Source: Microcaldota archaeon
Lineage (GTDB): Archaea; Micrarchaeota; Micrarchaeia; Micrarchaeales; Micrarchaeaceae
Reading direction: 5' to 3'
DNA length: 45,237 nt
Assembly: GCA_021801385.1 (NCBI GenBank)
Contig: JAJYYC010000002.1
Location: 1 to 45,237, forward strand
Shown: piece by piece, positions 38,838 through 44,587 of the stretch
Layout of the letters: every line of letters starts with the position of its first letter
Position numbering within the stretch: position 1 is the first letter of the stretch
Translations under genes and position numbers: made by a program
Notes under the pieces: model-generated
Seen by the model: only the letters and a program-made list of their open reading frames with translations
Database searches by the model: none
Told to the model about the DNA's origin: nothing

Positions 38838-39893
38838 TCATTTGCTGATATTTTTAGCCTGTATTCTCCTACGATGTTCTTCGGTTATTAGGGTGATAAA
38901 CAATCTTGTTCCATCTAAATCATCCCTATCGTATTGTTGCCGCCAAGAGTCTATTTTCTGTTCGTCAACCCGGAGGTAGTTTATAACTCCTTTTTCTGCC
39001 TTTATTTCATGTGTTATATCAAGTTGTTCTTTTCTAGCTTCTGGCGTATAATGTGAAAGGGCATTGAATTCCCTAAGTAAATAAAAATAATTATGTATAG
39101 TAAAGTTTAGGTTAGGTATCTGACCCCTTTTTATATAATATAGGATGTCTCCCGTAAGATATGATGCAGTGCAGAGGATCCGTTTGTAATCTGTTGGTGT
39201 GAGCTCCTCTTCTGTGTTTATTTTGTTGATTTTCACATAAAGCTGGAATAGTCGTTTAAGGATAGGTTTATTATTTAATATTTTAGCCATATCACCATAT
39301 GTAATTCGTGATTCAAATGCCATTATTTTGAAGTACCTATTCGTACTTTTTGCAAGGTTTTCATAATAGTCAAATCGGTGGTTAAGGTAATAATTTCTGC
39401 TAAGCTTCCTTTCAGTACCTCTTATTTCTGGGTCAAAAAAACAAAGACCAGAATAGATTGCAGCATTTTTTCTATATAACCTTCTTTGATAAGAATCGAA
39501 ATATCTGTGCCCAGATCCACTTAATTCTCTCTTCCTTACTTTAAAACCATCAACATCTGCTTCTTTTACAATTCTATGGATATCATTCTTAAATGCATCA
39601 CAAATCCCTTCATCAGTATCTATATAGAATATCCACTCTGCTCTACATTTATCCAATCCATACATCTGGTATGGTTCTGGATGCCCTAATGCAACCACAG
39701 GAAAGACTCGGACCCTATTCAACTTTTGTTCATCAAGCTGTTGCAAAAGTTGCCTTTTGTTAGTTGGAGTACTTGAATCTACTATGACAACTTCTGAAGA
39801 AAATGGATAAACGTCCTTCACCAAGTTGATTAGGTCAGGTATTCCATCCTTTGCAAAAATCAGCGTTGAAATATCAGGCATTTGAGCACCCAA
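38838..39893 (-). CDS. Family 2 glycosyltransferase-like protein
   Basis: DISTLIFAKDGIPDLINLVKDVYPFSSEVVIVDSSTP, WIFYIDTDEGICDAF (DxD), KVRKRELSG. Confidence 0.75.
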   Translation of the reverse strand: MGAQMPDISTLIFAKDGIPDLINLVKDVYPFSSEVVIVDSSTPTNKRQLLQQLDEQKLNRVRVFPVVALGHPEPYQMYGLDKCRAEWIFYIDTDEGICDAFKNDIHRIVKEADVDGFKVRKRELSGSGHRYFDSYQRRLYRKNAAIYSGLCFFDPEIRGTERKLSRNYYLNHRFDYYENLAKSTNRYFKIMAFESRITYGDMAKILNNKPILKRLFQLYVKINKINTEEELTPTDYKRILCTASYLTGDILYYIKRGQIPNLNFTIHNYFYLLREFNALSHYTPEARKEQLDITHEIKAEKGVINYLRVDEQKIDSWRQQYDRDDLDGTRLFITLITEEHRRRIQAKNISK

Positions 39894-40191
39894 TATACGT
39901 TTTGTCTGTGAAACTCTGCTGTCCCGCTAGCGCTTTGGATGCACCATTTATGCGATTTGCATTCAGGAGCGATATACCTTCAGAATAATTTGTGTCTTGT
40001 GTCGAAACAAAATGGGCAAATTTAGAACCATCAGATGTATGCTTTTTTTGAACTTGCTCGTATTGTATAAGGTATGTGAGTATATGCATTATTTCCTTAT
40101 GCTTATGATCTACCAGAGTCGGATGTTTTTCCGATGGTGTTTTCTTGTTGTTCGTAAACACCAGTCGCGCCGTCTTCCTCTGATGTTTCAT
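39874..40191 (-). CDS. Hypothetical small protein
   Basis: 105-aa ORF between the Ntn-hydrolase and glycosyltransferase genes, overlapping the latter's start by 20 nt. Confidence 0.5.
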   Translation of the reverse strand: MKHQRKTARLVFTNNKKTPSEKHPTLVDHKHKEIMHILTYLIQYEQVQKKHTSDGSKFAHFVSTQDTNYSEGISLLNANRINGASKALAGQQSFTDKTYIGCSNA

Positions 40192-40200
40192 TATACTCGC

Positions 40201-40893
40201 CTAATTACTATTTGCAAACTTTTGATCCATCAGTTTCCATCTTCTGCATATTGACTCTAATAGTTTCAGATCTTTCGGTGAAAAAATCTTGATTTCTCCA
40301 TTATTTTTCATAGTCCATATTGATATGGGGTCTTCAATTCCAATCAATGTATTTATGGTCTCTTTAATTCCTCTATACATTACTGTTGTTGCAACCTTTA
40401 TTGTTCGAGTTACAGGCAGAAATGCATTCAGCATCGTGTGCATTGGTACCTCACCGCTGCCGCTGCAATAGTGCCCCACAGCGTCTATAAATTCGTCATG
40501 CGTATCACCTGACATATGCCATATTCTGAGTTCATTTGAAACGTCAAGCCCGCATAGAGCGATATTAAGTTTTGGTGTACCTTCTTCTTTTCCATTATAA
40601 GCAATGTAAGTTTCTTTAGCAGACCTTAAGATAGGAAATATTTCTCTTTTGATACTTTCCAAAGTCTGGGTATTTAAACCCTTATCCAATTCTTTTGAAT
40701 AACCTCTCAGAATATCCATACTTTTTTGTATTAGCCCTATGGTTCCACTTGCTATAAAGACCGTCCTATCTCCCATTTTATGAATTTTTTGTATATCGTG
40801 TTTAATATATCCACTTGTGGTGGCCATACTTGCCTTACCATCAGAGCCAATCGCAACCCCATCGTTACATTTCACGGCACAAACTATGGTCAT
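40201..40893 (-). CDS. Proteasome-beta/HslV-like Ntn hydrolase
   Basis: MTIVCAVKCNDGVAIGSDGKASMATTSGYIKHDIQKIHKMGDRTVFIASGTIGLIQKSMDIL aligns with proteasome beta/HslV N-termini (Thr1 after Met removal, Asp17, Lys at ~33-35), later SGSGE and AT..MYRGIKETINTLIGIEDPISIWTMKNNGEIK. Confidence 0.75.
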   Translation of the reverse strand: MTIVCAVKCNDGVAIGSDGKASMATTSGYIKHDIQKIHKMGDRTVFIASGTIGLIQKSMDILRGYSKELDKGLNTQTLESIKREIFPILRSAKETYIAYNGKEEGTPKLNIALCGLDVSNELRIWHMSGDTHDEFIDAVGHYCSGSGEVPMHTMLNAFLPVTRTIKVATTVMYRGIKETINTLIGIEDPISIWTMKNNGEIKIFSPKDLKLLESICRRWKLMDQKFANSN

Positions 40894-41423
40894 TTTCCCA
40901 CTTCTAGCAATTTTATTGCACTAATAATTTTTGCTGCAGCAGGTATCATATGTGTTTTGTAACCAAACCTTATTGCCTTATCAAAGGCATAGAATTGCAA
41001 TGGGGTGATACTGAGCTTAAAATCGGTAAGGGTGATAAACGTGTCCAATATTTTACTGATTTTACGTATAGGCTTTGAATTATTATCCAATGTTGATAGG
41101 CTAGACTTCCCTCTGATTAGATGGACAAGCGATTTTTCATTTCCTTCTCTATCTTCTAGTACTACTTTCTCTATATCTTTTGGGACTTTCCGTAGAAACA
41201 TAACAAACATTGGGCTTATTGTCATTCCGATTGTTCCAACCTCATTTATATATGAAAGTTCCCGTAACTTAATGTCATCATTTTTATCAAAATTGTTATC
41301 GGCAACCTTCCTAACAACTTCGGAAAGTATTCGGATATCTGAATTACATGCTGGACATGGCTGATACTTTGCCGCCAAATTCAGTTCTTCGTGTAGGGTT
41401 ATCAATGCTTTCATGACAATCAA
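40890..41423 (-). CDS. Hypothetical protein with CPAC motif
   Basis: 177-aa ORF; stop overlaps the Ntn-hydrolase start by 4 nt; YQPCPACNSDIRILSEVV. Confidence 0.65.
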   Translation of the reverse strand: MIVMKALITLHEELNLAAKYQPCPACNSDIRILSEVVRKVADNNFDKNDDIKLRELSYINEVGTIGMTISPMFVMFLRKVPKDIEKVVLEDREGNEKSLVHLIRGKSSLSTLDNNSKPIRKISKILDTFITLTDFKLSITPLQFYAFDKAIRFGYKTHMIPAAAKIISAIKLLEVGK

Positions 41424-41459: not shown

Positions 41460-41678
41460 TTATGACTCTAGTTTTGTTGATGTACCGCCTTCGCACCCAG
41501 GATGGCTGCATCCAGGATGACTTGATTCCAGTCTTGCCAACTTACCTGGTTCACACCCTGGATGTGAACATCCCTCATGTGGTGCTTCTAATCTTCTAAT
41601 GGATGTTATATCTGTCTTTCCTGCTCCCACAATCTGTGCCTGTTGTACAGGCATACCAGTTTTTCTATTCGTGTTCAT
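41460..41678 (-). CDS. Precursor-like peptide with tandem His/Cys repeats (72 aa)
   Basis: MNTNRKTGMPVQQAQIVGAGKTDITSIRR-LEAPHEGCSHPGCEPGKLAR-LESSHPGCSHPGCEGGTSTK-LES; exact 20-residue period. Confidence 0.75.
   Translation of the reverse strand: MNTNRKTGMPVQQAQIVGAGKTDITSIRRLEAPHEGCSHPGCEPGKLARLESSHPGCSHPGCEGGTSTKLES
41463..41591 (-). repeat. 60-nt (20-aa) tandem coding repeat, two full copies plus a 3-residue third
   Basis: LEAPHEGCSHPGCEPGKLAR / LESSHPGCSHPGCEGGTSTK / LES. Confidence 0.85.
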
Positions 41679-42283: not shown

Positions 42284-43327
42284 ATGGCTAAAACTAAACT
42301 TGAAAAAGACGTGACGTTTAGCAAACTGTCTTACGAATTGTACTTAAATTCTAGAGTTCCGATTAGTGAACTTGTTGATAAACTCATGACTTCGCACCAG
42401 ACGACTTCAAGATACATTAAAGAACTGGAGAAAGACTATGGTCTAGATTATACCATAGATATTGATACAACTTTGCTAGGATTTACAGAGGCAAGAATAT
42501 TTGCCATAAAATTCGATGCAAGACCCGAAGTTAAGACCTTAAAAAATAGATTAATAAAAGATCATTATGTTCAAAACGCATATCTGGCCACAGGGGATTT
42601 TGATTTGATACTCCATGTGATATGCACAAGTGAAGTTGAGTATATTAAATGGTTATTTAAATTTAGAGTAGAATTTAGCAATTATAGACACATCATTAAA
42701 GTTGCCACTCTTAATGATGTTGCAGAAGGTTTTATGCCAATCCGGAATGAACTCATAAAATATAGTAATAAAATAAACGAAACGGAAAAAAAAATTATGA
42801 AAGTTTTACTTTCTAATTCTAGGATAAGACAGAAAAGTTTGATTAGACAAACAAACATTACTCAAATGAGAGTCATTTATGTATTAAAAAAATTGGTGGA
42901 AAGAGGCATAATAAGAAGATTTACTGCTACTATCCAGAACCCTAATAACAAAATATTTCTTTTTTTCGCCTTGGTTATAATTCCAAACCAGCATCATAAG
43001 CCACAATTGCAAGCATCTCTCATAAAAGAGATAATAAACAGAAAAGAAGTTAACCAATTAACAACAGATTATTCTGTGGTATATGATACTTCAGGTCATT
43101 TTGATTCTGTGTTCTTTTGCAATTTTAAAGATGGGGCGAGTTTAGATAACAGTGGCCCTAATCTTTTTAATAGAGTATGGGAAAGTGAATATCCTAAAAT
43201 TGAGAAAGCTATTCTGACAGATTTAGTTATAGGCAAGTGGCCATTTAACAATAATGCTTATAAACATTGGGAAGATATAATATTAAAAGAACTAAATCAC
43301 CCCACAAAGTATAATATCATACCGTAA
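42284..43327 (+). CDS. Two-module Lrp/AsnC-like transcriptional regulator (HTH plus ligand-binding-like region, repeated)
   Basis: SKLSYELYLNSRVPISELVDKLMTSHQTTSRYIKELEKDYGL, NAYLATGDFDLILHVICTSEVEYIKWLFKFR, second HTH NETEKKIMKVLLSNSRIRQKSLIRQTNITQMRVIYVLKKLVERGIIRRF. Confidence 0.7.
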   Translation: MAKTKLEKDVTFSKLSYELYLNSRVPISELVDKLMTSHQTTSRYIKELEKDYGLDYTIDIDTTLLGFTEARIFAIKFDARPEVKTLKNRLIKDHYVQNAYLATGDFDLILHVICTSEVEYIKWLFKFRVEFSNYRHIIKVATLNDVAEGFMPIRNELIKYSNKINETEKKIMKVLLSNSRIRQKSLIRQTNITQMRVIYVLKKLVERGIIRRFTATIQNPNNKIFLFFALVIIPNQHHKPQLQASLIKEIINRKEVNQLTTDYSVVYDTSGHFDSVFFCNFKDGASLDNSGPNLFNRVWESEYPKIEKAILTDLVIGKWPFNNNAYKHWEDIILKELNHPTKYNIIP

Positions 43328-43729
43328 TTTTAAACATTAGAATTAGGAACTTGATAAATCTTAAGCCTTTATATATCAGGTAATAGAAAATTGTTATTTT
43401 CTTTACATCGCTAATTAAAGGATTGTTAAAAGTTTTATGGTATAATTACCTGATTACATGATTATATTAAACATCTGGTTAGCGAGTTTTATCTTTTATA
43501 AATTTACGTTATCGAATCTGTGGTACAGATCGCCATACCTTTTTCAGTAACATCCTATTTTGTTGCAATACATAGATTGACATTTCTCTTCATGCATTAT
43601 TATCAAGTGCAATCCTCTTTAGTTCAGTGTCTTCACGTGTAAGTCTTCGTCTAGAGGCCTTTTTCTATTTTACGAGAGACCTTATTTCAGGATAATACAA
43701 AAGTCAGCTTAATCAAAAACTATAAATAC

Positions 43730-44350
43730 TTGATTTTGGTAAAAAATTATAAGGGTGGTTGTCTGTCTAGCAATGACTGGAAAGAATTCAATATGTATTG
43801 GGCGCAAGCGAAGCAGGAGATATTTAGACTACAACTTTTAAATACATATAATGTGCCGCAAGAAGAAACACAATTTAGAAACTATATGAATGGCATTCCT
43901 GTTGTTTTGGATTCTGATACAAAAGAATGGTTGTCTAGCTTAAACGCAAAGAGAAAGGCAGGAATTAGAAACCTCAACATTATTGTAACCGACCTTCCTT
44001 TAAGTGATTATCTCAAATTTGCGATAAATGTTTATTATATCGATCAACAGAAAGCAGGTCGTGAAACGCTTCTAGTTAATAGAAAAAATGTGGACACACT
44101 AGTTTCATCGGCAAAAGATTATTGGATGTTTGACTCTAAAAAAGTATTGCCAGTTAGTTATGATGCTGAAGGGCGTTTCCTAAGTATAGAGAAAGGTTTG
44201 GTAAATCCTGCAGATATAACCAAAGCGGTGAGATTAAGAGATGAACTATTAAGAGTTGCAAAACCAATTGATGAGTTTCTCAAAGAAAATAGTATAGATA
44301 TCAGCCCACCAAAAGCTAAGACACAAAAAAAATTTAGTAAGTCTTATTAA
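43730..44350 (+). CDS. DUF6879-like protein (TTG start uncertain)
   Basis: EIFRLQLLNTYNVPQEETQFRNYMNGI...LPLSDYLKFAINVYYIDQQKAGRETLL...KDYWMFDSKKVLPVSYDAEGRFLSIEKGLVNPADITKAVRLRDELLRVAKPIDEFL. Confidence 0.7.
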   Translation: MILVKNYKGGCLSSNDWKEFNMYWAQAKQEIFRLQLLNTYNVPQEETQFRNYMNGIPVVLDSDTKEWLSSLNAKRKAGIRNLNIIVTDLPLSDYLKFAINVYYIDQQKAGRETLLVNRKNVDTLVSSAKDYWMFDSKKVLPVSYDAEGRFLSIEKGLVNPADITKAVRLRDELLRVAKPIDEFLKENSIDISPPKAKTQKKFSKSY

Positions 44351-44371
44351 TAATAGTATATAGGTGAAAAT

Positions 44372-44587
44372 ATGGAAAAAACAATATATGATGCGGATCC
44401 GTCCCAAGAGTGCGCCACAGGTACATGTCCAAAGTTTGTTGTAAACGACGAGACACAGATTGTAACATTAATAGACAAACAAGGTAATAGGGCAAATATG
44501 TCTATCGAGCATTTTAATAAATTTATTAAGGCCGCAAGAAGTGGCGAAATGTCAGAGTTGCCAACAAAGTCCATATTAAGAAAATAA
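44372..44587 (+). CDS. Small protein, possibly DUF397-like
   Basis: ECATGTCPKFVVNDETQIVTLIDKQGNRANMSIEHFNKFIKAARSGEMSEL resembles the C.EVA...V.VRDSK.......S...W..FV...R.GEFD pattern of DUF397; immediately downstream of DUF6879-like gene. Confidence 0.5.
   Translation: MEKTIYDADPSQECATGTCPKFVVNDETQIVTLIDKQGNRANMSIEHFNKFIKAARSGEMSELPTKSILRK

Follow-up and report, generated by a model that had tools for sequence, protein, structure and literature searches.

The tandem His/Cys repeat peptide encoded on the minus strand of the window, i.e. of the whole stretch of 45,237 nucleotides that was analysed, belongs to a gene cassette together with a proteasome-like peptidase (PLP) and an all-helical protein of an orphan family (CP). 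At five independent loci, and in three gene orders, the peptide gene has the same neighbours, PLP and CP. Retention of this linkage despite reordering argues for a functional unit, and we consider the peptide-CP-PLP module to be almost certainly real. The cassette hints at a so far undescribed system for protein processing or metal handling, and the genes beside the peptide, which its initial annotation had overlooked, are the main point of the finding. The explanation that we favour, at somewhat less than an even chance, is that a metal-binding repeat polypeptide is the dedicated partner, probably the substrate, of PLP.

The repeat peptide and its relatives

The window derives from a 620-kb, 77%-complete MAG with MCM, Cdc6/Orc1 and SecY genes, which we take to be archaeal gene content; the lineage is probably Micrarchaeota. 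An open reading frame at 41460..41678 had been annotated with its strand omitted; the ORF list, homologues and a codon-pattern scan confirm it on the minus strand, where it encodes a 72-aa tandem HxGCxHxGC peptide (MNTNRKTGMPVQQAQIVGAGKTDITSIRRLEAPHEGCSHPGCEPGKLARLESSHPGCSHPGCEGGTSTKLES). The Cys-free N-terminal part (residues 1-29; 41592..41678), of which neither length nor sequence is kept in relatives, is followed on the same strand by two repeat units of 20 residues, LEAPHEGCSHPGCEPGKLAR (41532..41591) and LESSHPGCSHPGCEGGTSTK (41472..41531), and, directly after unit 2, by a terminal LES (41463-41471). For this peptide the initial annotation was accurate in placing each of the four Cys within H-[EP]-G-C, a basic residue ahead of each LE, and no Cys in the first 29 residues.

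The HxGCxHxGC codon pattern was found 2 times in the window and 0 times in 400 Markov-shuffled windows; the ORF is real, beyond chance. Units 1 and 2 encode the same residues with different codons (e.g. Ser as TCA versus AGC). Summed over all unit pairs, 319, 204 and 548 differences were counted at codon positions 1, 2 and 3, respectively, and this concentration at third positions indicates that the peptide is a coding sequence under protein-level constraint. A self-match on the plus strand of the window was discarded as a near-palindromic codon artefact (GGATGT...ACATCC) that includes a stop. As the start codon ATG1 was preferred to an alternative GTG at residue 17, given a GTGA-type site just upstream of ATG1, likewise present in relatives. 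The peptide is unmatched in Pfam, NCBIfam, PHROGs and PADLOC, in line with the earlier impression that it belongs to no known family, and known zinc-finger or metal-binding families gave sub-threshold matches only (Zf_WRKY19, RING-like and EsV_1_7; 11-14 bits).

Homologous peptides occur in five independent genomes from two families of one archaeal order, with 2, 2, 2, 2 and 4 units and a period of 20-27 residues. Those of G003 (56 aa) and G025 (52 aa) came from a protein search covering 85 family genomes, those of G217 (two units) and G202 (131 aa, four units) by scanning around phylum-wide CP matches. The ORF recurs in related genomes with protein-level selection on its units, and the variable copy number that had been predicted is indeed observed. 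The conserved leader predicted alongside it is not, as N-terminal parts vary from ~7 to 29 aa and also in sequence. Similarly, the exact 20-residue period holds for the window peptide but does not extend to its relatives, where units are spaced by 21 residues in three genomes and by 26-27 in the four-unit peptide of G202. Throughout 301 phylum genomes the codon pattern gave 11 matches, 10 of them inside the five homologous cassettes, and a reversed control pattern gave 2; the pattern is specific to the five cassette loci. The single match in G173, antisense within a large surface-protein ORF and without a cassette, was treated as chance, and an Arthrobacter match (L006) was spurious, being antisense to another gene. 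A search of viral contigs and plasmids for the peptide cassette found nothing. G249 was dropped as an independent locus, since its contig overlaps that of G217; the two genomes, nominally assigned to separate genera, are 100% identical over 2620 bp where their contig ends overlap (L027 4306-6925 in G217; L028 in G249), suggesting one population binned as two genomes.

Each peptide consists of two to four short units with a compact H/D-x-G-C-x-H-x-G-C ligand set. G-C, H and G-C are invariant in 12/12 units, the first ligand is H in 10 and D in 2 of the 12, and positions -4 and -2 are always L or I and A, S or T, respectively. Most units are preceded by a [R/K/T]x[LI]E-[AST] junction, the sole recurring part of the N-terminal regions, and LE(S/A) forms the C-terminal end of two-unit peptides. 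Motif and end resemble processing junctions, and the last unit stops at a would-be cut. In the G202 peptide, V or A replaces E at two junctions and the C-terminus is not LE, so that a strict cut after E is not general.

Three further CP genes, in G201, G256 and G014, adjoin small ORFs with CxxC pairs (MNTKQTGLEAGQGGCQGCGNGNCGGCTEEGIDLKITGMSAE, MRDIRNENETRCPICHMTCQGCGSTCPGCGGKAVVRPMR and MENIERVGKVEDSCQECGKECDDCHGAGISGTPVSK, respectively), whose CxxC-pair stretches read GGCQGCGNGNCGGC, CPICHMTCQGCGSTCPGC and CQECGKECDDC. For such short peptides we infer homology to the repeat peptide from position and layout; for that of G201, its LEA start and its genus also point this way. Among two-knuckle small ORFs in 17 CP loci, 7/11 lie <1 kb from CP on the same strand, a supportive count and not a formal test, because we set the cut-offs ourselves and the CP search had been seeded with 2 of the 17 loci. 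Ligand identity (H, D or C) would vary among all these peptides while the paired-knuckle layout stays, which fits metal-ligand interchange and is unlike residues kept for one enzymatic modification. Judged from ligand conservation and interchange, the peptide probably binds metal. The initial annotation had proposed either a RiPP precursor or a metal-binding repeat: the metal option fits better because H-to-D and HxxC-to-CxxC swaps between relatives keep the paired knuckles, and a classical RiPP is weakened by the absence of a conserved leader and of a recognised RiPP enzyme.

The genes of the cassette

Downstream of the peptide, and all on the minus strand, the window encodes CP (40890..41423), PLP (40201..40893; 4-base overlap with CP) and a GT2-family glycosyltransferase (38838..39893). 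A putative 105-aa ORF without family match (39874..40191, minus strand) lies between PLP and GT2 and overlaps the GT2 start. The order pep-CP-PLP-GT2 of the window is replaced by pep-PLP-CP-GT2 in G003, G025 and G217, by PLP-pep-CP in G202 and by CP-pep-PLP in G201. Within the close PLP clade, 7/7 independent members adjoin a CP gene and 6/7 also a small ligand-rich peptide; in G049, PLP and CP are present with no detectable peptide. CP may have a wider role, given that several genomes carry it without PLP or peptide. Decayed copies of CP (G207, truncated; G014) and of PLP indicate an accessory cassette that is frequently lost. In G060 (L029 4767-4979) a C-terminal PLP remnant immediately precedes an intact CP gene, a case of partial cassette decay, and G012 (L153 4698-5492), of the same genus as the window, holds a truncated cassette-type GT2, likely a remnant, with no detectable CP or PLP. 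The cassettes show no consistent link to any metal transporter or metal-sensor family, and they hold no recognised RiPP enzyme, transporter or double-Gly site.

By Pfam, structural model and conserved residues, PLP is a proteasome-beta/HslV-like N-terminal-nucleophile peptidase. It scores 34 bits against Pfam Proteasome (cut-off 22.4) and stays far below the cut-offs of the NCBIfam equivalogs (beta, 20-36 bits against 224; HslV, ~21 or less against 137-158), which sets it apart from canonical archaeal proteasome beta and HslV. The model (pLDDT 91) superimposes on the archaeal proteasome beta subunit 1j2q_H with a TM of 0.70 at 16% identity. Thr occupies position 2, right after Met, in all cassette members (at the annotated start or at an internal GTG/ATG), and neither Asp18 nor Lys36 varies among 12 sequences, in agreement with the Thr/Ser nucleophile, Asp17 and Lys33 that define proteasome-like proteins. 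Helices H1/H2 are modelled at 52-70 and 75-100 and an extra C-terminal helix at 206-229, and strands 20-25 and 28-33 are joined by a turn of just two residues. PLP shares the proteasome-beta fold, exposed Thr and conserved Asp/Lys with the HslV/Anbu/WPH/ACC proteasome-like family, and its C-terminal helix with Anbu, WPH and ACC, but differs as a distinct archaeal clade tied to a dedicated small peptide and CP; it may or may not belong to one of the 22 groups of Fuchs et al. 2021 (PMC8665760).

Canonical proteasome subunits were not found in the window genome, which is incomplete (77%); they are also present in 8 other genomes checked, 6 of these with a PLP of the cassette clade. That related cassette genomes hold canonical subunits indicates that PLP is an extra, specialised copy. 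More distant PLPs (G036, G020, G021, G057 and G058) have no CP or peptide neighbours and were not counted as cassette members. Two tandem proteasome-like genes each, in a different context, were seen in G058 (L060 5020-6527) and G057 (L061 3-1328), one of each pair having Ser instead of Thr at position 2.

The CP family was detected in 18/301 phylum genomes (E<=0.001), some copies being decayed. Its invariant PCxxCxxD comprises P22, C23, C26 and D29 (CxxC-x2-D), and its AlphaFold model is a confident all-helical fold (pLDDT 90). CP has no Pfam family and no significant relative among PDB or viral structures; helical-bundle matches, including copper-storage proteins, were weak and not significant. 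The GT2, a usual cassette member that adjoins CP/PLP in G000, G003 (truncated), G025 and G217, forms its own clade (E near 1e-195 versus 1e-64 for the next genomic relatives), and the truncated G012 copy matches this clade at 1e-105.

Candidate functions of the cassette

According to the explanation that we favour, each unit would chelate a soft transition-metal ion (Zn or Cu(I)-like) via two HxxC knuckles. PLP would act at the recurring [LI]E-[AS] junctions ahead of the units, in most relatives also at the C-terminus, and would thereby either free units or turn the peptide over, with CP as a dedicated binding or hand-over partner. Archaeal proteasomes usually prefer hydrophobic residues, and the L or I of the junction would suit. 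Whether PLP acts on the peptide is a close call that falls slightly on the negative side, and cleavage specifically at the junctions is rather doubtful. A fuller scheme, with roles for CP and GT2 inferred as well, seems a shade more doubtful again. In it, a metal-chelating polypeptide of several units would be cut or joined by PLP at [LI]E[AS], the product would be loaded or carried by CP, and in most lineages GT2 would modify this product.

The presence of GT2 brings to mind the glycocins (SunS-type), which likewise have a small Cys-containing peptide encoded near a glycosyltransferase and receive their sugar from dedicated peptide glycosyltransferases (PMC12457901, PMC6405829). The peptide would then be the multi-core precursor of a RiPP whose Cys or Ser/Thr are sugared by GT2 and whose leader is removed and cores separated by PLP, the product being a signal or antagonist. 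In four independent cassettes GT2 comes immediately after CP or after the PLP/CP pair, its separate clade there keeps a glycosylated product possible, and tandem units, variable copy number and a protease homolog would all suit such a pathway. However, an NCBIfam search up to E = 1 matched GT2 neither to a SunS-type enzyme nor to any other peptide S-glycosyltransferase, the G202 and G201 cassettes have no GT2, and a conserved leader, double-Gly site and cassette transporter are all absent. Moreover, S-glycosylation would leave the conserved, invariant His unexplained, and we regard a glycocin-like product as quite unlikely. The ligand pattern could also describe an intact small zinc-knuckle domain that remains uncut as a structural or regulatory subunit on PLP or CP (assembly factor, gate or inhibitor), for which the repeated LE flanking each unit could be structural. 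Small proteasome partner proteins acting through C-terminal tails are established. The peptides, however, have no conserved C-terminal HbYX-like tail, and their copy number, spacing and C-terminus vary more than expected of a fixed-stoichiometry subunit, a role that we consider unlikely.

A toxin-antitoxin, conflict or mobile element, with the peptide as effector and PLP or CP as immunity or degradation partner, would account for the patchy distribution and the decayed copies (PLP in G060, CP in G207, GT2 in G012), and two cases have a DUF6879 module next to them. Against this, there was no convincing PADLOC match, mobility genes were absent except for a transposase beside G003, and viral contigs and plasmids had none of it; such an element is very unlikely. 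Since one proteasome homolog, the archaeal connectase, ligates proteins in a sequence-specific manner at a conserved peptide motif (PMC8665760, PMC11961121), and the junction motif recurs along the units, PLP might also cut and religate at [LI]E[AS], joining units mutually or to another protein. Connectase has no H1/H2, and two helices are inserted between its S3 and S4 (PMC8665760), whereas the PLP model keeps H1/H2 and has the two-residue turn without that insertion. PLP does not group with connectase on these features, the likeness is one of analogy only, and ligation appears highly improbable.

The metal-binding polypeptide that we favour resembles metallothioneins and short Cys/His metal-binding peptides in being small, ligand-dense and tandem with H/C/D interchange, but it has no sequence match to them and is encoded beside a protease homolog and CP. 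Family libraries miss the peptide, and libraries, PDB and structure searches miss CP. We rate the combination as unlike any known system; it would be less novel if the peptide proved to be a simple metal buffer. Many proteasome homologs are known from sequence alone. The 2021 survey (Fuchs et al., PMC8665760) described new proteasome homologs without genomic context suggestive of function, and the cassette is context of the kind that it did not report. The linkage, which recurs at five independent loci across several gene orders, provides a concrete, testable substrate-partner hypothesis for a proteasome homolog, and the peptides form a new His/Cys repeat family in archaea with reduced genomes. 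If the fuller scheme is true, an orphan proteasome-like group gains a defined substrate.

The adjacent regulator and its neighbours

A divergent tandem Lrp/AsnC-like HTH regulator is encoded at 42284..43327 on the plus strand; such a gene often accompanies the cassette and may regulate the operon. The closest relatives of the window gene adjoin the cassette (G217) or a CP gene (G014, G207 and G056); as HTH genes of the wider family abound throughout the order, only local linkage counts. In the window the regulator forms a trio (42284-44587, plus strand) with a DUF6879 protein and a 71-aa protein. The same trio occurs with the cassette in G217 (L027), and without the peptide cassette in G253 (L155), G029 (L156) and G012 (L154). 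DUF6879 is present in 15/164 genomes of the order. The 71-aa protein has no Pfam match, displays a conserved CPKF...D..GN...M....FN...A..SGE pattern and may resemble actinobacterial DUF397/BldB.
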